NCBI GenBank assembly: GCA_016867265.1
Contig: VGJW01000001.1
Span: 62,001 to 126,000 of the forward strand
Reading direction: 5' to 3'
From: Candidatus Tanganyikabacteria bacterium
GTDB taxonomy: Bacteria > Cyanobacteriota > Sericytochromatia > S15B-MN24 > VGJW01
Length of the DNA stretch: 64,000 nucleotides
Shown here: positions 28,917 to 47,899 of the stretch, one piece after another
Layout: each line of letters begins with the position of its first letter
Position numbering within the stretch: position 1 is the first letter of the stretch
Notes under the pieces: model-generated
The model's database searches: none
The model's input: only the letters and a program-made list of their open reading frames with translations
Told to the model about the DNA's origin: nothing
Translations under genes and position numbers: made by a program

Positions 28917-30238
28917 ACCTGCCCATCGTGGCCATCGTCGGTCGTCCCAATGTTGGCAAGTCAACGCTGCTGAACCGCTTTGTCGGGTCGCGCGAGGCCA
29001 TCGTCCACGGTGAGGAGGGGGTGACCCGCGACAGGCTCTATGCCCGCGTCGAGTGGTGTGGGCGCCAGTTCTTGGCTGTCGATACCGGAGGCATCGTCCC
29101 CGGTACCGACGACGACATGCTGGCTCAGGTGGCCGACCAGGCCCGTTTGGCCATCGCCGAGGCCGACCTCGTCCTGTTCGTCGTGGACGGGAAGGCAGGT
29201 CGTTTGCCTGCCGACGACGAGATTGCTCATCTTCTGCGCAAGTCCCGCAAGCCGGTCCTCGTGGTCGTCAACAAGTGCGACCGGTATGAGGATTTCGAGC
29301 AGGTTCTCGAGTTCCACGCCCTAGGGCTCGGCCAGCCCTGGCCGGTGTCGGGGGTACACGGCACCGGCACGGGCGACATGCTCGATGCGATGCTCGTCGG
29401 TCTGCCGGTGGTCGATGCCCACGAGGAGGACGACTCCATCCGGATTGCGGTCGTCGGGCGTCCCAATGCGGGCAAGAGCTCGCTCGTCAATCGGCTGATC
29501 GGCGAGGACCGGATGATCGTCTCCCCCGTCTCGGGGACGACGCGCGATGCCATCGACACGGCCATCGAACATGACGGGCGTCGGTTCTGGTTGGTCGATA
29601 CGGCCGGCATCCGACGAAAATCCAAGGTCGACTACGGCGTGGAGCAGTTCTCGGTTGTCCGCGCCTTGAAGGCCCTCGAGCGCGCTGACGTCGTGGTGCT
29701 CGTCATGGACGGCACGATGGGTGTCACGGACCAGGACAAGCGGCTCGCCGAGATGGCGGTCGAAGGCGGCAAGGGTCTGGTGCTCGTCGTCAACAAGTGG
29801 GACCTCGTGCCCAAGGACCAGCACACGATGGAGCCATTCCGTCGCGACGTGCTTGCGGCACTGCCTCACGCGGACTTCGCGCCTGTCGTCTTCATCTCTG
29901 CCCTTACGGGCCAGCGCGCGCTGCAGGTGCTGGATACCGCCATCAAGGTCGCGGACGAGAATGGTCGTCGCATCACGACGGGGGTCCTGAACGAAGTCAT
30001 GTCCGAGGCGACGGCCATGCAGCCCGCACCGACCCGACACGGCCGGCGCCTGAAGGTCTACTACGCCCAGCAAGGGCCGACTCACCCGCCGACCTTCATC
30101 CTCTTCTGCAACGAACCCGAGCTCTCGGTGCCCTCGTACACGCGCTATCTCGAGCATCGGATGCGGGATGCCTTCGGCTTCGTCGGGGTGCCCATAAGGT
30201 TTATCTACCGGCCGCGTCGGGAGCGCCGCGAGCGTTGA
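28913..30238 (+). CDS. der: Ribosome biogenesis GTPase Der
   Basis: This essential GTPase with two tandem G domains acts in late 50S assembly. It has 441 residues, with G1 motifs GRPNVGKST near residue 10 and GRPNAGKSS near residue 182. It also has DTGG and DTAG switch motifs, NKCD and NKWD, and a C-terminal KH-like domain (PTHPPTFILFCNEPE). The start is TTG at 28913, overlapping the stop of the Nif3-like gene (TTGA). A longer frame upstream is only the other frame of that gene. The stop shares its last base with the plsY start (TGATG). Confidence 0.96.
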   Translation: MNLPIVAIVGRPNVGKSTLLNRFVGSREAIVHGEEGVTRDRLYARVEWCGRQFLAVDTGGIVPGTDDDMLAQVADQARLAIAEADLVLFVVDGKAGRLPADDEIAHLLRKSRKPVLVVVNKCDRYEDFEQVLEFHALGLGQPWPVSGVHGTGTGDMLDAMLVGLPVVDAHEEDDSIRIAVVGRPNAGKSSLVNRLIGEDRMIVSPVSGTTRDAIDTAIEHDGRRFWLVDTAGIRRKSKVDYGVEQFSVVRALKALERADVVVLVMDGTMGVTDQDKRLAEMAVEGGKGLVLVVNKWDLVPKDQHTMEPFRRDVLAALPHADFAPVVFISALTGQRALQVLDTAIKVADENGRRITTGVLNEVMSEATAMQPAPTRHGRRLKVYYAQQGPTHPPTFILFCNEPELSVPSYTRYLEHRMRDAFGFVGVPIRFIYRPRRERRER

Positions 30239-36472: not shown

Positions 36473-37504
36473 ATGACGACCGCTCAGGAAGCACTTGAGT
36501 CGATCGAGCGGGAAGCGCTTGATCGGCTTGCTACGTTGTCGACGACGGCCGGGCTAGAGGGTTGGTTGACCGAGTTTCTCGGCCGCGAGCGCGGGCGGGT
36601 CACGCAGGCCCTTAAGCTGATTCCGACCCTGCCCCCCGAAGCGCGCAAGCCATACGGGGGCGCTGTCAATCGGCTCAAGGTGGCGCTTGAGGCCGCCCAT
36701 GCGGAGAGAGGGGGCGTGCTTCGTGCGGCCGAGACGGCAGCACGTATCGAGGCTGAGGCGTTGGATGTCTCGATGCCTTCCATTGGTCGCTCGATGGGCC
36801 ATGCGCATGTCCTGTCCCAGGTACGTGACGAGTTGGTTGCCCTGTTCAAGAGCTTGGGCTACGGGCTTGCCGAGGGCCCGGAGGTCGAGGATGCGTGGCA
36901 CAACTTCTCGGCGCTCAATACGCCGGAGGATCATCCGGCCCGGGACCCCAAGGATACGTTCTACCTGCCGGACGGTCGCCTGCTTCGCACCCAGACCTCA
37001 TCGGTCCAGATTCGCCATATGGCGGCGGGCAAGCCGCCTTTCCGGATCATCGCGCCGGGTCGGGTTTACCGTCGCGACGCCGTGACTCCGCGCCACTACC
37101 CGATGTTTCACCAGCTCGAAGGCCTGCATGTGGCTGAGGGCATCACTTTTGCCCACCTCAAGGGCGTTCTTCAGGCTTTCGCCGAAGGGGTTTTTGGCTC
37201 GGGGACGCCCATGCGGTTGCGGCCCAGTTTCTTTCCCTTCACTGAACCGTCGGCCGAGATGGATGTGCGGTGCGTCTTCTGCGAGGGCGCGGGGTGTAGA
37301 ATCTGTTCCCATACGGGCTGGCTCGAGATATTGGGCTGCGGCATGGTGGATCCGGCGGTTCTCGAGGCCGTCGGTATCGATTCCGAGCGTTATTCGGGCT
37401 TCGCTTTCGGTCTTGGCGTGGAGCGCATCGCCATGCTTCGGCACCGGATTCCGGACATCCGCCTGCTTTGGGAGAACGATGCCCGTTTCTTGGCCCAGTT
37501 CTAG
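36473..37504 (+). CDS. pheS: Phenylalanyl-tRNA synthetase alpha subunit
   Basis: This class II aaRS alpha chain charges tRNA-Phe as an alpha2beta2 complex with PheT. The 343 residues start with a coiled-coil arm, then motif 2/3 elements: DTFYLPDGRLLRTQTSSVQIR, RVYRRDAVTPRHYPMFHQ, and the end GFAFGLGVERIAMLRHRIPDIR. A CxxC pair (VFCEGAGCRICSH) lies in the loop. It forms an operon with pheT (9-base gap) and sits after rpsF-ssb. The tRNA-Phe gene lies at 48.1 kb. Confidence 0.97.
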   Translation: MTTAQEALESIEREALDRLATLSTTAGLEGWLTEFLGRERGRVTQALKLIPTLPPEARKPYGGAVNRLKVALEAAHAERGGVLRAAETAARIEAEALDVSMPSIGRSMGHAHVLSQVRDELVALFKSLGYGLAEGPEVEDAWHNFSALNTPEDHPARDPKDTFYLPDGRLLRTQTSSVQIRHMAAGKPPFRIIAPGRVYRRDAVTPRHYPMFHQLEGLHVAEGITFAHLKGVLQAFAEGVFGSGTPMRLRPSFFPFTEPSAEMDVRCVFCEGAGCRICSHTGWLEILGCGMVDPAVLEAVGIDSERYSGFAFGLGVERIAMLRHRIPDIRLLWENDARFLAQF

Positions 37505-37513
37505 GAGAGTGCC

Positions 37514-39892
37514 GTGCGTCTGCCCTTGAATCTGCTGCGCGGCCGACTTGGAGGGACCTGGAGCCTTGGCGAGGTCAGCGCGACGCTTGCGCGGTCGCCT
37601 CTCGAACTCGAAGGCGTGGAGCGGTTTGCGCCAGGTATGGACCGGGTCATCACGGGACGTATCGTAGACGCTGCTGCCCATCCGGATGCGGACCGTCTCC
37701 GGGTCTGCTCGGTGGATGCCGGGGCTGCGGGTGCCTTGCAGATCGTCACGGCGGCAACCAACGTACAGGCCGGAGACATCGTGCCCGTCGCGCTCGACGG
37801 TGCTGTCTTGCCGACGAGCAAGGCCATCGCGGCCTCAAAGATGCGGGGCGTGATGTCCCAAGGCATGTTCTGCTCGCGCGAGGAGCTGGCGCTTGGGGAC
37901 GGCGTGGACGGCGTCTGGGTCCTGCCTTCGGAAACGGTGTTGGGCCTGCCCATCGCCGAAGCGATGGATTTGGGGGAGGTCGTGCTGGATCTTGCGGTGC
38001 CGGCCCATCGCGGTGATCTCTTGTCCGCCCACGGTGTAGCGCGCGAGTTGGCTGCGTTGGGCTTGGGGCATCTGGTCCCCTTGCCGTCCCCAGTGGCTTT
38101 CCCGGCTGGCGGACCGGCAGCGCCACAACTGACCGTCGCGCCTGAAGGTATCTGGCGCTATGCGGCCTGCGCCATCGAGGGCGTAAGCGTTCCCCCCTCT
38201 GCGCCTGATGTGGCGCGCGTCCTCGAGGCGGCTGGTCTCAGGGCCGTGGACGGCATCGTCGATGTCACCAACCTGATGCTGCTCGAATTCGGTCAGCCGA
38301 TGCATGTCTTTGACGCGCAGCACCTGCAGGGCGGGCGTATGCAGGTCCGTTCGGGCGTGGCAGGCGAGACGCTTGTTCTGCTCGATGGCCGCGAGGTGCA
38401 ACTGGATGAAGCGGACCTCGTGGTGGCGGATGCGGAAGGGCCAGTCGCCCTTGCCGGCGTGATGGGTGGTGAGGCGACGGCCGTGCAGGCGAGTACGACG
38501 GCGCTGCTGCTCGAGGTTGCCAGCTTCGAACCCGCCGCGGTCCGTGCGACGGCCCGGCGCCATCAGGTGAACTCCGAATCTGCCCAGCGTTTCTCGCGAG
38601 GCGTGGATGCAGATTCCATTCCGGCGCTGCTCGCCGAGGCCGTGCGGCGCATCGTGGACGTGGCCGGGGGCCGGGCCGGTCAGGCAGCGGATCTGGTTCC
38701 GGTTCCTGGCGCGATCGTTGCGCCCGTCGTCGCTTTCCGGCCGGCACGAGCCCGTGCATTGCTGGGCCTTGATGTTGCGGATCAGGGCCAACTCGCCGCT
38801 CTGGAGCGCATCGGTGCCAAGGTGGATGCCAAGGATGCGACTTGGCAGGTCACTCCCCCCGATTGGCGGCGTCTCGACCTGCAGCGTGAGGTGGACTTCG
38901 TCGAGGAAGTTGCCTTCCAGTGTGGTCTCGATGCCATACCAGCGATCCTGCCCCCGATGGTCCGGCTCGCGGGTGCCGGCAAGGCCGATGTCGCGGCGAC
39001 CTTGCGTGGCTGGGCCACGGCGGCCGGACTGGACGAGGTGGTCCTGCCCTCGCTCGTGGCGGCCCATCGGGATAATGTTTTCGTGTCCTGGCCTGCCGTT
39101 GCCGTTGCCGAGGCCATGGGCGAATTCCAGGTCCTGAGGCGCTCGCTCTGGCCGGGGTTGCTCGAGATTGCGACCCGCCGTCGTCGCGAAGGGGCGGAAC
39201 GGGCGATGTTCTTCGAGGTCGGGCAGGTTGCGTGGGTCGAGGATGGCGAGATTCGTGAGGAGCAGCGTTTCGCAGCCCTGATCGCCGGTGGCCTCGAGAC
39301 GGGGCCCTGGCTCCATGTCCCTCAGGCACTGCAGCCGGATGTCCGCTGGGGACAAGGGCTGCTCGAGTCCCTCTTGGCTTGTCTGGGCGTGGCCGGAACG
39401 GCCGGATGGCGGGCGGCGACTCTGCCCGGCCTGCAGCCCGGCCGGACGGCCGTCGGTGGGCCGTCCGGCTCCTGCGTGGCAGCAGAAGTGCATCCTGAAC
39501 TTCTCGAAAAGCTCGATCTAGCAGCCTGGGGGCGGGTTGTTCTGGTCGAAGTGCGGTTGCCTGCGCTTGCGGGTGAAAAGGGCCTACGGCATTTCCTGCC
39601 TTTCGACCGCTACCCGGTCGCACGTCGCGACCTCGCGGTCGTGGTGGCTTCGACGGTGACGGCGGCAGAGGTCGAGAGCGTCATTCGCGACGCAGGTGGA
39701 CAGGCCGTGCGGTCCGTGCGCTGCTTTGATCGCTATGCCGGGCCCGGGTTGCCCGATGGCTCGGTCAGCCTCGCGATGGCGCTGGACTTCGGGGCCGAGG
39801 ATCGGACACTGAAGGATGCCGAGATCGAGGTCCTCGAAGCTGGCTTGCTCGCTGAGCTCGAATTTCGACTCGGGGCGCGTCGACGCAGCTGA
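37514..39892 (+). CDS. pheT: Phenylalanyl-tRNA synthetase beta subunit
   Basis: The 792-residue beta chain has the EMAP-like tRNA-binding domain (HPDADRLRVCSVDAG, SKMRGVMSQGMFCSREELALGD), the B3/B4 editing domain (GIVDVTNLMLLEFGQPMHVFD), the B5 domain, a catalytic-like core and the C-terminal ferredoxin-fold anticodon-binding domain (FDRYPVARRDLAVVV). Length is normal. The start GTG at 37514 has AGGAG upstream. A perfect 6-bp hairpin follows its stop codon. Confidence 0.97.
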   Translation: MRLPLNLLRGRLGGTWSLGEVSATLARSPLELEGVERFAPGMDRVITGRIVDAAAHPDADRLRVCSVDAGAAGALQIVTAATNVQAGDIVPVALDGAVLPTSKAIAASKMRGVMSQGMFCSREELALGDGVDGVWVLPSETVLGLPIAEAMDLGEVVLDLAVPAHRGDLLSAHGVARELAALGLGHLVPLPSPVAFPAGGPAAPQLTVAPEGIWRYAACAIEGVSVPPSAPDVARVLEAAGLRAVDGIVDVTNLMLLEFGQPMHVFDAQHLQGGRMQVRSGVAGETLVLLDGREVQLDEADLVVADAEGPVALAGVMGGEATAVQASTTALLLEVASFEPAAVRATARRHQVNSESAQRFSRGVDADSIPALLAEAVRRIVDVAGGRAGQAADLVPVPGAIVAPVVAFRPARARALLGLDVADQGQLAALERIGAKVDAKDATWQVTPPDWRRLDLQREVDFVEEVAFQCGLDAIPAILPPMVRLAGAGKADVAATLRGWATAAGLDEVVLPSLVAAHRDNVFVSWPAVAVAEAMGEFQVLRRSLWPGLLEIATRRRREGAERAMFFEVGQVAWVEDGEIREEQRFAALIAGGLETGPWLHVPQALQPDVRWGQGLLESLLACLGVAGTAGWRAATLPGLQPGRTAVGGPSGSCVAAEVHPELLEKLDLAAWGRVVLVEVRLPALAGEKGLRHFLPFDRYPVARRDLAVVVASTVTAAEVESVIRDAGGQAVRSVRCFDRYAGPGLPDGSVSLAMALDFGAEDRTLKDAEIEVLEAGLLAELEFRLGARRRS

Positions 39893-39999: not shown

Positions 40000-41736
40000 A
40001 TGGCAAGGCAAAAGTCCAAAGCCGCCACGAAGGGCAAGGGTAAGGGCAAGTCCGGCAAGGCTCCCTCCGGTGGCCTCATGGGCTTCCTGGCACGCCTGTT
40101 GCCCGGGGGCAAGGGCAAGGCAAAGCCTGCCAAAGGCAAGAAGCGCAGGGACGCTGATGCGGCTTCGGTAGCGGAAGACGCCGGTTGGTCCGATGAGGAG
40201 ACCTCGCTGGCCGCAGAGGCGGGCTGGGATACCTCGGACAGCAGTTGGGGCGGTGAAGCGAACTGGGGTGATAGCGCAGATGCGTGGACCCCCGCTGGCG
40301 AAGGCGGGGGCGGTGCTCCTGCTGCGGATTGGGCCGATGCAGGTCCGATGGGGCAGGATTGGCTGAGTGGTTCGTCGGCCCCCACGGATGCGGCGCCGAC
40401 GGAGGCCCCTGCCGATGATGGCTGGGGAGCCTCGAGCAGTTGGGAGCAAGCGCCCGGACCAGCGCCTCAGATGGCGGTACCCGCGCCCGCCCCGGCCCCT
40501 CGGCAACCCGAGGATGCCGCTGCCTCGGATCCCAACAAGCTCTTTCCGGATGGCGTCGATGCCTCGCTGGACAGCCTGTTCGACAGCTTTGAGCCTCAGC
40601 CCGCAGCCGTAGCTGCCCAGCCTGAGGAACCGGTGTCGTCGCCGGCGGCGGACCTGATGGGCGAGTTCATGGGCATGTTGCCTGGCGCCGCGGACACCAC
40701 GTCGGTGGTCGCAGACGCTCCAGTCGTCGATGGCTGGCAAGATGCCGCGCCTGCGGCGGATGCGGATTGGCAGGCTCCCCCCGAAGCTGCCGACGGTGTC
40801 TGGCAAGCCCCTGCCGAAGGCACCGATGCTGGCTGGCAACCGCCTGCCGACGGTGGCTGGCAGGCCCCTGCCGAAGGTGCCGATGCCGGCTGGCAACCGC
40901 CTGCCGACGGTGGCTGGCAGGCCCCTGCCGAAGGTGCCGATGCTGGGTGGCAGCCGCCTGCCGACGGTGGCTGGCAAGCCCCTGCCGAAGGTGCCGATGC
41001 CGGCTGGCAACCGCCTGCCGACGGTGGCTGGCAAGCCCCTGCCGAAGGTGCCGATGCCGGCTGGCAGCCCCCTGCCGACGGTGGCTGGCAAGCTCCTGTC
41101 GCGGGTGCCGATGCCGGCTGGCAGGCCCCGGTCGCGCCGGAGGCCGCCTACTTGCCCCCGCTTGAGGCCGTGGTCCCCGAGGCACCGTTGCTCCCGCCTT
41201 CACCACCACCTGTCGCTCCCGAGCCCCCCAAGGCAGCGCTCGGAGTACCGGCGCCCCCGGCCGGAATACCCGAGCCTCCGCGCCCTGAAGGCCTTGTTTC
41301 CGTGGGCAAGATGCTCGTGGACCAGAATCAGCTCAAGAAGATCATCGACCGCGGCGAAGGTGGCGATGGCCGGACCCGCCTCATCACGTCGGCCCGGGGT
41401 GAGGAGCTGGACCAGATGCTCCAGCGCATCCAGGCGGTACGCGGTGCCTCAGGTGCCTTGATTGTCGGCCGTGATGGCCTCGTCATCTCGGCACAGCTCT
41501 CGTCGGACCATGACCGTGAGATGCTGGGGGCGATCGCATCCTCGATGTTCGCCAACCTCGAAGTCCAGGTCCGGAAGATGCAAGTCGGCAAGCTGGGCTG
41601 GGCGATGATGGATTGCAGCGAAGGTTCGCTGATGATTGTCGGGCTCGAGATCGGTGTCCTCGTCGTGCTTGCCGAGGGTGTTGCCGAACTGGACATCGGC
41701 GGGGTCTGGGAAGTCATCGCGACCCGCGACACTTGA
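40000..41736 (+). CDS. Roadblock/LC7 protein with Trp-rich disordered repeat region
   Basis: The 578-residue protein has three parts. Residues 1-50 are Lys/Gly-rich with a short hydrophobic helix (GLMGFLARLLPGG). Residues about 50-430 are low-complexity, acidic, and rich in Ala, Pro, Gly and Trp, including six 19-residue tandem repeats of the form DGGWQAPAEGADAGWQPPA. The C-terminal 110 residues form a roadblock/LC7 domain (ELDQMLQRIQAVRGASGALIV, with QVGKLGWAMMDCSEGSLMIVG), the fold found in MglB and other GTPase regulators. RBS GAGGAA precedes the ATG. It lies 75 bases upstream of pilB, so a role in pilus control or polarity is likely. No Ras-like GTPase (mglA) is beside it. Confidence 0.85.
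   Translation: MARQKSKAATKGKGKGKSGKAPSGGLMGFLARLLPGGKGKAKPAKGKKRRDADAASVAEDAGWSDEETSLAAEAGWDTSDSSWGGEANWGDSADAWTPAGEGGGGAPAADWADAGPMGQDWLSGSSAPTDAAPTEAPADDGWGASSSWEQAPGPAPQMAVPAPAPAPRQPEDAAASDPNKLFPDGVDASLDSLFDSFEPQPAAVAAQPEEPVSSPAADLMGEFMGMLPGAADTTSVVADAPVVDGWQDAAPAADADWQAPPEAADGVWQAPAEGTDAGWQPPADGGWQAPAEGADAGWQPPADGGWQAPAEGADAGWQPPADGGWQAPAEGADAGWQPPADGGWQAPAEGADAGWQPPADGGWQAPVAGADAGWQAPVAPEAAYLPPLEAVVPEAPLLPPSPPPVAPEPPKAALGVPAPPAGIPEPPRPEGLVSVGKMLVDQNQLKKIIDRGEGGDGRTRLITSARGEELDQMLQRIQAVRGASGALIVGRDGLVISAQLSSDHDREMLGAIASSMFANLEVQVRKMQVGKLGWAMMDCSEGSLMIVGLEIGVLVVLAEGVAELDIGGVWEVIATRDT
40792..41133 (+). repeat. Six tandem copies of a 57-bp repeat
   Basis: Copies start at 40792, 40849, 40906, 40963, 41020 and 41077, each 57 bases (19 codons), inside the roadblock gene. 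The four middle copies are nearly identical in DNA, the first and last diverge (GTC for GGC; VAG in place of AEG). Each unit has two Trp codons spaced 11 and 8 residues. Copy number may vary between strains by slippage or recombination. Confidence 0.95.
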
Positions 41737-41811
41737 GACAACGGGCTCCGGGCGGGTAAGTAACCTTTCAGGACCTTTTGCATGCGGTGCCGTTACGGAG
41801 GGTAGGACACC

Positions 41812-43725
41812 TTGGCCATCGTCAAGATGAAGCTTGGGGAGATCCTGCTCAATGCGAATGCGATAACCGAGGCCCAACTCGCCCAGGCCGTCGAGGTTCA
41901 GAAAGCCTCGAGGGAGTCTCTCGGGCTGATCCTGATCAAGCAGGGTTATGTCACCGAGGCGACCATCAAGGACGCGCTCGAACTGCAGTACGGCTTGCGT
42001 TACATCAACCTGCGCAAGACCAAGGTCCCGCCCGAGGTCCTGAAACTCATCCCCGAGAACCTGATTCGGCAACACATGATCGTGCCGGTATCGCTGACGA
42101 ACAACCGCCTGCAACTGGCGATGGTCGATCCCCAGAACCTGATCGCGCTGGATGACGTCCGGTTCATGCTCAAGGGCATTTCCATCCAGCAGGTCGTCAT
42201 CACCGAGGACGAATTCTTCTGGTTCCTCGATCAGGTGCGCGGCGAGTCGCCCGAGCAGGTGGCTGCCCAGGGTTCGGGCGGGGCCGTGCCCGACATCGCA
42301 TCCGTCCTTGGTGATTTGGCCGGCGACGACGACATCGAGATGATCGAGCAGAAGGAGGACAACCTCAAGGTTACCGACCTCGAGAGGATGAGCGAGGAGT
42401 CGCCCATCATCAAGCTTGCCAATTCGATCCTGACAGGGGCGCTGGGCGGCAAGAAGGTTTCCGACATCCACATCGAACCCTTCGAGAACGAGGTCCAGGT
42501 CCGCTACCGCATGGATGGCCTGTTGCACAAACAGTCCCTGATTCCCAAGAAGTTCCTGCCCGCCCTGGTGAGCCGTTTCAAGATCATGGCCTCGCTGGAC
42601 ATTTCGGAAAAGCGGTTGCCGCAGGATGGTCGCATCCGCGTGCGCTTCAAGAACCGGGATGTGGACTTCCGCGTGTCGACCTTGCCGTCCAAGCATGGCG
42701 AGAAGGTTTGCATGCGCATCCTGGACAAGGGCAGCACGACGCTGGGGCTCGACAAGCTCTTCCTCTATCCCGAGGATCTCGAGCTGGTGCGCGAGATGGC
42801 CAATCGCCCCTTCGGCATCATCTTCGTGACGGGGCCCACGGGCTCGGGGAAGACGACCACGCTCTATTCGATCCTGAACGAGCGGAACACCCCGGACGTC
42901 AATATCTCCACCGCTGAGGACCCGATTGAGTACGATGCCCCGGGACTTATCCAGTGTCAGGCGCGTCCCGAGATTGGCTATACCTTCGCCCGCATCCTGA
43001 AGGCATTCCTGAGGCAGGACCCGGACATCATGCTGATTGGCGAGACGCGCGATTACGAGGTCGCCAAGATTGCCATCGAGTCCGCCCTTACGGGGCATCT
43101 GGTGTTCACCTCGCTTCATACCAACGACGCCCCAGGTGCCATCATGAGGCTCTCCGAGATGGGGGTCGAAGGCTTCCTGGTCTCCGCCGCGACCATCGGC
43201 GTCGTCGCCCAGCGGCTCGTCCGTCGCCTATGCTCGGCCTGCAAGGTTCCCTATACGCCCGAGGTGCGCGATCTGGACTTTGTCGGCTATCGCTATGACC
43301 CGAACGCCCTGCCGACCTTCTACAAGGCGGTGGGTTGCCCCCAGTGCAACAAGGGCTACTCCGGCCGCATGGGCGTCTACGAGATCATGAAGATGAACGA
43401 CGAACTGCGTGACCTCGTGGGTCGTGGTGCCTCCACGGCGCTGATTCGCTATGCAGCCAAGCAGACCGGTATGGTGACGCTCAAGGACTATTCCTTGAAG
43501 CTTGTCCGGGATGGCCACACCTCGCTCGAGGAGGTCGTCCGCGTGACGTTCTCGGGCGAGGGCGAGGAGAAGCTCTGCCCCAGCTGTCGGAATCCCGTCG
43601 GGGACGAGTTCATCAAGTGTCCCTTCTGCCAGGTGGATCTCAAGAAGATGTGCCCGCAGTGCCACCAGCGGGTTGAAGAGGGCTGGAAGGGTTGTCCCAA
43701 CTGCGGGACCCTGCTTGCCGCGTAG
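41812..43725 (+). CDS. pilB: Type IV pilus assembly ATPase PilB with C-terminal double zinc ribbon
   Basis: This 637-residue hexameric secretion ATPase powers pilus extension. N-terminal residues 1-70 form a MshEN-type domain (KLGEILLNANAITEAQLAQAVEVQ, then LGLILIKQGYVTEATIKDALELQ), which in relatives binds c-di-GMP. The ATPase core has Walker A GPTGSGKTTTLYS, an Asp box and a Zn-binding tetracysteine (CSAC and CPQC). The last 48 residues add a second zinc module with CPSC, CPFC, CPQC and CPNC, a double zinc ribbon not found in standard PilB. The start is TTG at 41812 with ACGGAGGGTAGG upstream. It is followed by pilT. Confidence 0.94.
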   Translation: MAIVKMKLGEILLNANAITEAQLAQAVEVQKASRESLGLILIKQGYVTEATIKDALELQYGLRYINLRKTKVPPEVLKLIPENLIRQHMIVPVSLTNNRLQLAMVDPQNLIALDDVRFMLKGISIQQVVITEDEFFWFLDQVRGESPEQVAAQGSGGAVPDIASVLGDLAGDDDIEMIEQKEDNLKVTDLERMSEESPIIKLANSILTGALGGKKVSDIHIEPFENEVQVRYRMDGLLHKQSLIPKKFLPALVSRFKIMASLDISEKRLPQDGRIRVRFKNRDVDFRVSTLPSKHGEKVCMRILDKGSTTLGLDKLFLYPEDLELVREMANRPFGIIFVTGPTGSGKTTTLYSILNERNTPDVNISTAEDPIEYDAPGLIQCQARPEIGYTFARILKAFLRQDPDIMLIGETRDYEVAKIAIESALTGHLVFTSLHTNDAPGAIMRLSEMGVEGFLVSAATIGVVAQRLVRRLCSACKVPYTPEVRDLDFVGYRYDPNALPTFYKAVGCPQCNKGYSGRMGVYEIMKMNDELRDLVGRGASTALIRYAAKQTGMVTLKDYSLKLVRDGHTSLEEVVRVTFSGEGEEKLCPSCRNPVGDEFIKCPFCQVDLKKMCPQCHQRVEEGWKGCPNCGTLLAA

Positions 43726-43769
43726 CCGACAATCGCTGAACCGACGCCACCCTTGGAGGGACATCCGCC

Positions 43770-44876
43770 GTGTACATGGAAGAACTGCTGCAGCTGACCT
43801 TCGACCGGGACGGGTCGGACCTGCATATCTCTTCCGGCGTTCCGCCGATCATCCGCATCAACGGGAAGCTGGTGCGCACGGATTATGAGCCGCTGTCTCC
43901 CGAGGATACCCAGCGCCTCATCTTCTCGATTCTCTCCAATGACCAGCGCAAGACCCTCGAGCAGACGTTGGAGCTGGACTGCTCCTACGGTGTCGTCGGC
44001 CTGGGCCGGTTCCGCGTCAATGCCTTTCGCTCCAAGGGTGCCTTCGCCGCAGTCTTGCGTACCATCAAGTCGAAAGTGCCGCGCTTCGAGGACCTGGGGC
44101 TGCCCCCGCTGATCCGTGAGCTGACCCACAAGCCTCGCGGCGTCATTCTGGTCACTGGGCCGACGGGTTCGGGCAAGTCGACGACCCTCGCTGCCATGAT
44201 CGACAACATCAATGCCACGCGGGCCGAGCACATCCTCACCATCGAGGATCCCATCGAGTTCGTCCATACGCCCAAGATGAGTCTCGTCAATCAGCGCGAA
44301 CTGGGGGCCGATACGCGAAGCTTTGACAATGCCCTGAGGGCGGCCCTGCGCGAAGATCCCGACGTCATCCTGGTCGGCGAGATGCGCGACCTCGAGACCA
44401 TCCGCCTCGCCATGTCGGCGGCGGAGACCGGCCACCTTGTCTTCGGCACGCTGCACACCAGCTCGGCGATGCAGACGGTCGACCGTATCGTCGACGTCTT
44501 CCCGCCTCACCAGCAGCAGCAGATTCGCGTTCAGATTTCCAACTCGCTTGTCGCCGTTCTCTCGCAGACCTTGGTGCCCAAGATGGGTGAGCCCGGGAAG
44601 GCCGGCAAGGGGCGATGCATGGCCCTCGAGATCATGGTCAACACGCCCGCCATCGCCAATCTGGTCCGTGAAGGCAAGACGGCCCAGATCTATTCGTCGA
44701 TCCAGACGGGGCAGAAGTACGGCATGCAAACGCTCGAAAATGCCTTGCGCGACCTCTATCTGAACAAGCAGATCGCCTACGAGGACGCCGTCTCAAAGAC
44801 GTCGCGCCCGGACGACCTGATCCGCATGATCGGTGCGGCACCGGCAGGGTCCATGGCCCAGTCGATGGCGCACTAG
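43770..44876 (+). CDS. pilT: Type IV pilus retraction ATPase PilT
   Basis: This 368-residue ATPase drives pilus retraction (twitching motility, DNA uptake). N-terminal PAS-like part DGSDLHISSGVPPIIRING; Walker A GPTGSGKSTTLAAMID; Walker B LREDPDVILVGEMRDLETI, with AIRNLIREGK-like C-terminal motif NLVREGKTAQIYSSIQTG. The start is GTG at 43770 with GGAGGG nine bases upstream; ATG at 43776 is the alternative. It is followed by pilC 10 bases on. The gene order pilB-pilT-pilC is that of cyanobacteria and several other phyla. Confidence 0.97.
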   Translation: MYMEELLQLTFDRDGSDLHISSGVPPIIRINGKLVRTDYEPLSPEDTQRLIFSILSNDQRKTLEQTLELDCSYGVVGLGRFRVNAFRSKGAFAAVLRTIKSKVPRFEDLGLPPLIRELTHKPRGVILVTGPTGSGKSTTLAAMIDNINATRAEHILTIEDPIEFVHTPKMSLVNQRELGADTRSFDNALRAALREDPDVILVGEMRDLETIRLAMSAAETGHLVFGTLHTSSAMQTVDRIVDVFPPHQQQQIRVQISNSLVAVLSQTLVPKMGEPGKAGKGRCMALEIMVNTPAIANLVREGKTAQIYSSIQTGQKYGMQTLENALRDLYLNKQIAYEDAVSKTSRPDDLIRMIGAAPAGSMAQSMAH

Positions 44877-44886
44877 GAGCGTTACG

Positions 44887-46146
44887 ATGCCCCAGTACAG
44901 CTGCAAGGTCCGGGACTACCGCGGCAAGTCCTTCATCAAGGTCATGCCGGGCAACTCGCCCGAAGAGGTCCGGGACAAGCTGCGCGAGATGGGCTACATC
45001 ATCGTCACGCCGCTACGAGTGGCCAAGGACGGTACGGGAGAAGAGGCGGTCGATCTCGGCCCAAGCCTGAGCGAGCGTCTGCGTAACCTGAGCTTCCTCA
45101 AGCCCAAGGTCAAGCTTGAGGACCTGTCGATCTTCACGCGGCAGTTGGCCACCATGATTAACTCCGGTGTGGCCTTGGTCCGTGCCCTGTCGATCATGGC
45201 GGAACAGACGAGCAACGCAGCCCTGTCGGAGGTCGCCGACGACATCCGGATGCGTGTCGAGGCAGGCACCGCGCTTTCGGATGCGATGGCCAAGCATCCT
45301 GACGTCTTCGACAATCTTTTCGTCGGCATGGTCCGGGCCGGTGAGGCGGGTGGTGTGCTTGACGAGGTCCTCCAGCGCATCGCGAGCTTCAATGAGGCGT
45401 CCGCGCGACTTCGTCGGCAGGTCAAGTCGGCCATGACCTATCCGATTGCCGTGGCCATCATGGCCGTCTCGATCTTCATCGGCATGCTGCTGTTCATCTT
45501 GCCGGTCTTCTCGAACATGTTCGCGCAGATGAATGCCAAGTTGCCTGCCTACACCCAGTTCATGATTGACCTGTCCGAAAATGCACGGGGACCTGCTGGT
45601 CTCAGCATGGTCTGCACCATTGCCATCGCGGTTTTTCTCTACAAGCGTTTCGCCGCGACCGACCAGGGGCGTCACGTGATCGACAAGTACATGTTGCAGT
45701 TGCCCGTGGTGGGCGGCATCGTCCAGAAGGTCGCCGTGGCGCGCTTCACGCGGACGCTGGGAACGCTGTTGCGCTCAGGCGTGCCCTTGTTGTCGGCCCT
45801 CGAGATCGTCCGTGATTCGGCAGGCAATACCGTCATCTCAGGTGCCATGGAGGACATTCGCCAGGCCGTGCGTGAAGGTGAGGGTATCTCCAAACCCCTT
45901 GAGAAGGCCGACATCTTCCCGCCCATGGTGACGCAGATGGTCTCGGTCGGCGAGGAAACGGGGCAGATCGACGGCATGCTGGAAAAGGTCGCGGACTTCT
46001 TCGACAGTGAGGTCGAGGCCTCCATCAAGTCGCTCACGAGCCTGCTTGAGCCCATCATGATGGCCTCCATCGGCATTCTGGTCGGGTCCATCGTCGTGGC
46101 GATGTACCTGCCGGTCTTCTCCATCATCGGCCAGGTGGGCAAGTAG
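44887..46146 (+). CDS. pilC: Type IV pilus inner-membrane platform protein PilC
   Basis: The 419-residue membrane protein is the platform on which PilB and PilT act. It has the duplicated GspF domain (LEDLSIFTRQLATMINSGVALVRAL and VARFTRTLGTLLRSGVPLLSALEI) and three membrane helices. The start is ATG at 44887; the open frame upstream overlaps pilT and is not coding. The C-terminus ends LPVFSIIGQVGK, typical. No pilin or pilM-Q genes are present in the window, so the rest of the pilus is encoded elsewhere. Confidence 0.96.
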   Translation: MPQYSCKVRDYRGKSFIKVMPGNSPEEVRDKLREMGYIIVTPLRVAKDGTGEEAVDLGPSLSERLRNLSFLKPKVKLEDLSIFTRQLATMINSGVALVRALSIMAEQTSNAALSEVADDIRMRVEAGTALSDAMAKHPDVFDNLFVGMVRAGEAGGVLDEVLQRIASFNEASARLRRQVKSAMTYPIAVAIMAVSIFIGMLLFILPVFSNMFAQMNAKLPAYTQFMIDLSENARGPAGLSMVCTIAIAVFLYKRFAATDQGRHVIDKYMLQLPVVGGIVQKVAVARFTRTLGTLLRSGVPLLSALEIVRDSAGNTVISGAMEDIRQAVREGEGISKPLEKADIFPPMVTQMVSVGEETGQIDGMLEKVADFFDSEVEASIKSLTSLLEPIMMASIGILVGSIVVAMYLPVFSIIGQVGK

Positions 46147-46912: not shown

Positions 46913-47272
46913 TCAGGCCAAGCCGAGATAGCGGTCCAGTTCGGCACGAGTCACGGTGCCGTCCTTGTCGTTGTCGAGCGTCTTGAACACGTCGAGGGCC
47001 AGAGACGAAGTGATGCCTCCGTCCGCCCCTGCTTGGTTGCTGTCCCGTGCGCCGCGCAGGACCTGGTTCCGCTCCCTGAGCGCCTCCTCGATCCCACCCA
47101 CATATTGAAGCAAGCTGACATGGCGATTCTGGTCTGCCTCACGAAGTCGGTCGAACTCCCGCAACATCGTCTGGTGGCGCTCCATGCCCAGAATGGCCTC
47201 CGCACCGATGGCGGGCTGCGGGGCGGGCGAGACGAATGAGAAACCTAGCGGATTCATGAAAATATGCGCCAT
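46913..47272 (-). CDS. EF-hand protein, copy 1
   Basis: A 119-residue protein whose C-terminal 30 residues form one canonical EF-hand loop, DNDKDGTVTRAE, with Asp at positions 1, 3 and 5 and Glu at 12, flanked by helices FKTL and LDRYL. The N-terminal part is a helical region of unknown role with LREADQNRHVSLLQYVGGIEEAL. It has no clear signal peptide. It is related to the gene at 47.5-47.9 kb by both protein and DNA in the last 85 bases. An SD-like AAGGAGG lies about 20 bases upstream of the ATG, farther than usual, so the true start is uncertain. Confidence 0.7.
   Translation of the reverse strand: MAHIFMNPLGFSFVSPAPQPAIGAEAILGMERHQTMLREFDRLREADQNRHVSLLQYVGGIEEALRERNQVLRGARDSNQAGADGGITSSLALDVFKTLDNDKDGTVTRAELDRYLGLA
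46917..47001 (-). repeat. EF-hand direct repeat, copy 1
   Basis: An 85-base segment matching 47568-47652 at an offset of 651 bases, encoding the EF-hand of both small genes. DNA identity is visible over whole stretches such as the DNDKDG codons. Confidence 0.75.
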
Positions 47273-47485: not shown

Positions 47486-47899
47486 TCAAGCCTGCCGGGT
47501 TCCGCCGCTCGGCTGGGGGCCGGCTGCAACTGCTTCCGCACCCTGTCTCAGCCCGGTTGGCTGCGCGGCCAGGCAGAGATGACGGTCCAGCTCGGCACGT
47601 GTCACGAGGCCATCCTTGTCGTTGTCGAGCCTCTTGAATGCCTCAAGTGCCATCTCGGAGGAAAGGCCGCCTCCCCGACCGATCTGTTTGTGGTCCGCCA
47701 GGCCCTTGAGCAGATCGGTCTGCTCCTTGAGTACCTGACCAATCCCCTCCAGCGTACGCTGCAACGCATGATGCGGCTCAAGATCGAGCATGGCTGCCAT
47801 CAGGCCGGCATCTCTGAAGCCCCGGTCATCCTCGACGTCGATGTCCTCGTTCCCTCCACGCATGAGCCGCTGGGCCAGAATCAGCTCGGTAATCATCAT
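47486..47899 (-). CDS. EF-hand protein, copy 2
   Basis: A 137-residue protein with one EF-hand, DNDKDGLVTRAE, near residue 105, and a long N-terminal helical region (GIGQVLKEQTDLLKGLADHKQ). The C-terminal tail is low-complexity. A strong SD GAGGAGG precedes the two adjacent ATG codons (47899 or 47896). The domain order and the EF-hand are shared with copy 1, indicating a tandem duplication with divergence of the N-terminal part. A Ca2+-dependent regulatory or structural role is possible but unproven. Confidence 0.75.
   Translation of the reverse strand: MMITELILAQRLMRGGNEDIDVEDDRGFRDAGLMAAMLDLEPHHALQRTLEGIGQVLKEQTDLLKGLADHKQIGRGGGLSSEMALEAFKRLDNDKDGLVTRAELDRHLCLAAQPTGLRQGAEAVAAGPQPSGGTRQA
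47568..47652 (-). repeat. EF-hand direct repeat, copy 2
   Basis: The partner of the 46917-47001 segment, offset 651 bases. It encodes the EF-hand of copy 2. Confidence 0.75.

Follow-up and report, generated by a model that had tools for sequence, protein, structure and literature searches.

A Roadblock protein encoded next to pilB in Sericytochromatia and its possible link to an MglA-type GTPase

In Myxococcus, GTP-bound MglA stimulates pilus formation via SgmX, which helps place the extension ATPase PilB (PMC7519303). The C-terminal helix (Ct-helix) of MglB comprises residues 147-157, of which D150-D152, D154, L156 and F157 have been named; it promotes nucleotide exchange and binds an MglA pocket to which K181, K185, L64 and I67 contribute (PMC6785124). 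A search of mostly open-access literature found no paper on a Roadblock protein in a pilB operon, on MglA in Sericytochromatia or on a polarity system in non-photosynthetic Cyanobacteriota (Sericytochromatia, Obscuribacterales). The operon described here offers a concrete and testable bridge between MglA and PilB/PilT. It lies in a 64,000-nucleotide stretch of DNA (the window) from Candidatus Tanganyikabacteria bacterium, which has a genome of 2.85 Mb and belongs to the class Sericytochromatia (non-photosynthetic Cyanobacteriota). The protein encoded directly 5' of pilB is tentatively read as a membrane-tethered Roadblock adaptor that would dock MglA near PilB and PilT.

The pil cluster and its conservation

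The cluster and its upstream neighbours are arranged as follows.

36473 to 39892, + strand: pheS-pheT, upstream neighbours, kept in the window's order and in Obscuribacterales (pheT alone in genome G109)
40000 to 41736, + strand: Roadblock adaptor gene (578 aa), first in the roadblock-pilB-pilT-pilC cluster (ORF, Pfam, synteny)
41812 to 43725, + strand: pilB-type extension ATPase with an MshEN N-domain and a C-terminal double zinc ribbon (Pfam, NCBIfam)
43770 to 44876, + strand: pilT retraction ATPase (Pfam, NCBIfam)
44833 to 46146, + strand: pilC platform protein, true start probably near 44887 (ORF, Pfam, NCBIfam)

The adaptor reading frame was called from an ATG at 40000 to a stop at 41736, and 75 bp separate this stop from the start of pilB on the same strand. 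An earlier note on this DNA described a 578-residue protein with a basic N-terminus, a disordered Trp-rich region with six 19-residue repeats and a C-terminal Roadblock domain, placed before pilB-pilT-pilC; the ORF, Pfam, repeat and AlphaFold data all agree with this layout. Two conserved elements, a predicted membrane anchor and an LF..LD.LF helix motif, had been missed. PilM scored above its cut-off in the same genome, which makes a type IVa pilus (T4aP) machine plausible. A promoter scan gave no useful result. The double zinc ribbon of PilB (Pfam DZR, aa 589-632, 43576-43707) occurs besides the c-di-GMP-type MshEN N-domain; the region is covered by the PilB matches of Sericytochromatia and Obscuribacterales and appears conserved. 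Past the 3' end of the pil cluster, the - strand encodes two mutually similar short EF-hand proteins (46913-47272 and 47486-47899).

A search of genome contigs with the window protein alone matched no relative, and an alignment-based search used instead of the single sequence recovered 14 loci. The adaptor gene is present in 13 of the 59 genomes searched (own genome included), all from the same class. The earlier note had proposed the neighbour of pilB in related genomes as a check, with a gene absent or unlinked as the outcome that would speak against its idea; the gene is directly 5' of pilB in 12 of the 13 gene-bearing genomes (the window's own and 11 relatives). The exception is G001, where the gene is on a small separate contig and pilBTC stands behind other genes. 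Class members with no match are incomplete, broken within or at the start of pilB, or have no orthologous pilB in the assembly. In named records, homologues come from Candidatus Sericytochromatia MAGs and, more distantly, from Obscuribacterales/Melainabacteria MAGs. Photosynthetic cyanobacteria in a 292-genome sample of the phylum gave only short Roadblock proteins with weak scores.

Predicted membrane anchor and Roadblock domain

Three parts of the protein lie outside the long linker.

40000 to 40152, + strand: N-terminal basic tail and amphipathic helix GGLMGFLARLL (aa 24-34), a predicted membrane anchor
41290 to 41410, + strand: conserved segment before the Roadblock domain, GLVSVGKMLVDQNQLKKII...TT.VI.A.RG (GKMLVDQ; alignments A1 and A5)
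41410 to 41673, + strand: Roadblock/LC7 domain, aa 471-558 (Pfam, profile search, AlphaFold, Foldseek)

The first 60 residues hold 17 K/R versus 4 D/E, and the GGLMGFLARLL helix has a hydrophobic moment of 0.59 with basic stretches on both sides. The same layout occurs in 4 relatives and is that of the window's order. Sister families f6 and f7 carry a signal-like segment and a transmembrane helix instead (Kyte-Doolittle 2.8-3.4), and Obscuribacterales and G109 have several N-terminal transmembrane helices. The f5 gene is truncated at the 5' end, so its N-terminus is absent from this comparison. Anchors that are conserved but interchangeable suggest that the protein is tethered to the membrane and that its Roadblock domain is in the cytosol; the N-terminus would then hold the adaptor on the inner membrane.

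The C-terminal Roadblock domain named in the earlier note is the sole Pfam domain of the adaptor (Robl_LC7, E 2.6e-10, 40.3 bits versus a cut-off of 23). Its place in the Roadblock/LC7 superfamily is also seen in the AlphaFold model, which Foldseek matches to Roadblock structures with a probability of 1.00; these include structures from Asgard archaea, Ragulator p14/MP1 and MglB (6izw, 6h5b, 6hjm). By sequence, the nearest Roadblock domains are those of Asgard and CvnB-type proteins rather than MglB, which is why the adaptor is not classed as an MglB. A profile search with the domain matched Asgard and CvnB chains and no MglB at E<=0.01, and hhalign gave a probability of 6% for the alignment with the cognate MglB. 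The gene is coupled to pilB and not to mglA. The possibility that the adaptor is the MglB of this genome is ruled out, with a canonical mglB-mglA pair on contig C3. When the MglA-contacting residues of M. xanthus MglB (MxMglB; alpha2, N37, R98) were mapped by eye, the cognate MglB apparently lacked N37 and R98 too. The domain should dimerise as other members of the fold do, and could offer a second surface for a GTPase or partner.

The segment preceding the domain is strongly conserved over two classes and is present twice in Obscuribacterales, but is absent from f4 (two relatives). No relative of it and no confident structure were found. The idea that it is an MshEN-like module is not supported: hhalign to the PilB N-domain gave a probability of 0.2%.

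Linker motif, MglA and alternative readings

The remaining features are in the linker and on a second contig of the genome.

40540 to 40593, + strand: linker motif LFPDGVDASLDSLFDSFE (aa 181-198), MglB Ct-helix-like, a candidate MglA-docking motif
40787 to 41123, + strand: lineage-specific array of 57-bp tandem repeats, each coding for a Trp-rich unit of 19 aa
C3:140632-141680: cognate mglB-mglA pair (mglA at 141108-141680)

Residues 60-440 are rich in Ala, Pro, Gly and Trp (23% Ala, 17% Pro, 13% Gly and 6% Trp in the linker), and a pLDDT of ~35-45 in the AlphaFold model indicates that this linker is disordered. The motif is the sole block of the linker that can be aligned, and residues 185-194 within it form the sole linker helix that AlphaFold predicts, at a pLDDT of ~55-58, which is low in absolute terms. 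Its shared form is LF..(V/L)D.(S/A)LD.LF with 1-9 copies per linker: one in f1-f4, three in f5 and f7, and 5-9 in f6. The pattern D..[ILVM]D.[LI]F has a single match in ~20,000 aa of window ORFs, in the adaptor alone, and all 28 of its 28 matches in 64,550 aa from 12 related loci fall in these Roadblock proteins. Shuffled linkers hardly ever contain the motif (P<=0.0015 for every Sericytochromatia linker apart from L028, which is truncated). An Obscuribacterales linker contains VSDDDIDDIF. In the window protein, VDASLDSLF matches D150, D154, L156 and F157 of MxMglB and has a hydrophobic residue at 153; the motif is short, present there in a single copy, and its match to MxMglB covers 4-5 residues. 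Both the sequence match and the predicted helix are in the linker and not at the C-terminus. The linker motif thus resembles the MglA-binding Ct-helix of MglB and may be an MglA-docking motif.

The earlier note had looked to an MglA-type GTPase encoded elsewhere, and the genome does contain an intact MglA of 192 aa (E ~1e-79 to M. xanthus MglA) on a different contig from the pil cluster, adjoined by a canonical MglB (E 1e-23 to MxMglB). MglA was found in 21 of the 22 genomes checked, missing solely from one that is 64% complete. The pocket residues L64, I/V67, K181 and K185 are kept in 20/20 MglA checked, with one K185R. In f1-f4 the coupled MglB ends in a tail of the form [IL][DNSQ][DN]LF (9/9 genomes). 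In f5-f7 the coupled MglB has no such tail, and the Roadblock linker has 3-9 copies of the motif. Two MglB-like paralogues of f7 carry LDDQIDNMF or LNNQVDDMF close to the C-terminus, and MglB was not found in four Obscuribacterales at E<=1e-12. This pattern of tails and copies fits a docking motif common to MglB and the pilus-linked protein, but it reflects only one or two evolutionary events.

Other MglB-like genes were also observed. The host genome has a second MglB-like/MglA-like pair (L004 / L042, G000:C3 ~29,040-30,084), in which the MglA-like protein is 29% identical and the Roadblock protein ends in ...ALDDIFGDL, similar to the tail motif. A further MglB paralogue (L002, G000:C24:19566-19967) has no tail motif and occurs across f1-f4.

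Under the tentative MglA-docking reading, the long disordered linker would present one short helix, or 3-9 copies of it in sister families, that mimics the MglB Ct-helix. Given that its gene shares a cluster with pilB, pilT and pilC, the adaptor would most likely concentrate the MglA of the genome at the pilus machine and couple the nucleotide state of MglA to extension and retraction. A stronger form of this proposal is rather doubtful. In it, this product of the pilBTC operon would be a multivalent array for MglA capture, its Roadblock domain joined to a membrane-tethered linker that bears copies of the Ct-helix, up to nine of them in the sister families; the array would have taken over the function of the MglB helix where MglB is tailless, and would tie the MglA switch to the pilus ATPases. 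The operon also suggests that the Ct-helix of MglB is a portable docking motif, able to occur outside MglB and to multiply.

The main rival to MglA docking is a pilus adaptor that works independently of MglA, which is considered unlikely. Here a Roadblock dimer, formed in f6 with a second Roadblock protein, would directly bind PilB, PilT or PilC, and the linker motif would dock on an ATPase or on the Roadblock domain itself. The tight linkage to pilB is consistent with such a protein. So is f6, where a second short single-domain Roadblock gene lies between the adaptor gene and pilB and suggests a possible heterodimer partner, at the following positions.

L034:6768-7103: second Roadblock gene of f6
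L035:9057-9386: second Roadblock gene of f6
L036:8627-9010: second Roadblock gene of f6
L032:8167-8514: second Roadblock gene of f6
L037:774-1142: second Roadblock gene of f6

Docking of a helix on a Roadblock domain also has a real precedent in Myxococcus, where the Roadblock dimer of MglC is bound by a RomR helix (PMC12719032). However, the linker motif is unlike the RomR helix as described, in which W394 is the key residue (PMC12719032), and it does match the MglA-binding helix of MglB and the cognate MglB tails. The near-universal presence of MglA in the genomes checked also argues against a role independent of it.

The tandem array comprises 5.9 copies of 57 bp (93% match) and encodes 19-aa GGWQAPAEGADAGWQPPAD units at aa 266-379. 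The adaptor has 25 Trp, 23 of them within aa 63-374, and their spacing in the array alternates between 8 and 11. Regular spacing of this kind led the earlier note to propose Trp stickers, and a condensate-forming scaffold in which these stickers and the Ala/Pro/Gly spacers phase-separate at the pole is improbable. The repeats themselves are confirmed, and all 5 changes among units 2-5 are synonymous (P ~0.001 on a neutral expectation), a sign of purifying selection; the repeats are therefore probably used by the cell, though they are lineage-specific. Other lineages have aromatic repeats of their own (AFGDTP, QQWDPNQ), and one f6 linker has a sub-threshold nucleoporin-FG match. However, the Trp spacing is absent from relatives, which have 0-8 Trp and repeats of QQWDPNQ, AFGDTP or LDSALDDLF, so a Trp-based mechanism is not shared, and low-complexity linkers evolve fast anyway. 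The Trp repeats are ruled out as a conserved functional core. They represent an elaboration of the spacer in one lineage, and the condensate idea could apply only to this lineage of the window protein.

More distant gene orders bear on the age of the pil linkage. In Obscuribacterales the orthologue stands after pheST and combines N-terminal transmembrane helices with a pair of Roadblock domains, while pilBTC is found elsewhere in the genome. G109, from another lineage, has a divergent transmembrane-Roadblock gene flanked by pheT and pilT. Family f6 has lost the link to pheST and retained the one to pil. Judging from this gene order, the pheST-roadblock-pil neighbourhood is probably old, and some lineages have lost its pheST part and others its pil part. 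A general membrane-bound Roadblock signalling protein with an ancestral tie to pheST, for which the pil linkage is a by-product of gene order, would suit the Obscuribacterales arrangement but is improbable given f6 and G109. The linkage to pil genes, as expected of a type IV pilus accessory protein (12/13 Sericytochromatia, pilT in G109), is retained across diverged lineages, which argues for function.

Comparison with described systems

The proposed MglA-docking adaptor shares parts with several described proteins. With MglB of M. xanthus and T. thermophilus, a GAP/GEF of MglA, it shares the Roadblock fold, and its linker motif resembles the Ct-helix. It differs from MglB in that the motif precedes the domain and can occur in several copies, in its predicted membrane anchor and in a sequence that is not MglB-like; the genome also has a canonical MglB of its own. 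The proposed role is closest to that of SgmX of M. xanthus, a link between MglA and the PilB extension ATPase (PMC7519303). SgmX, however, is a TPR protein with no Roadblock domain described, so that the adaptor is built from different parts. In M. xanthus, MglC is a Roadblock hub and RomR is disordered and docks by a helical segment (PMC12719032), but these are two separate proteins and the MglC Roadblock has no membrane anchor. CvnB of the Streptomyces conservons and the Roadblock proteins of Asgard archaea have the nearest domains by sequence, but are short single-domain proteins with neither linker nor anchor.

The eukaryotic Ragulator/LAMTOR complex is multi-subunit and lipid-anchored and works with Rag GTPases. 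It is a membrane-tethered Roadblock scaffold for small GTPases, as the adaptor is proposed to be, and p14/MP1 is among the best structural matches to the adaptor domain. The likeness is one of analogy, and no sequence kinship to the adaptor is claimed. A Ragulator-like layout of anchor, disordered arm, Roadblock domain and small GTPase would nevertheless be an instructive bacterial parallel.
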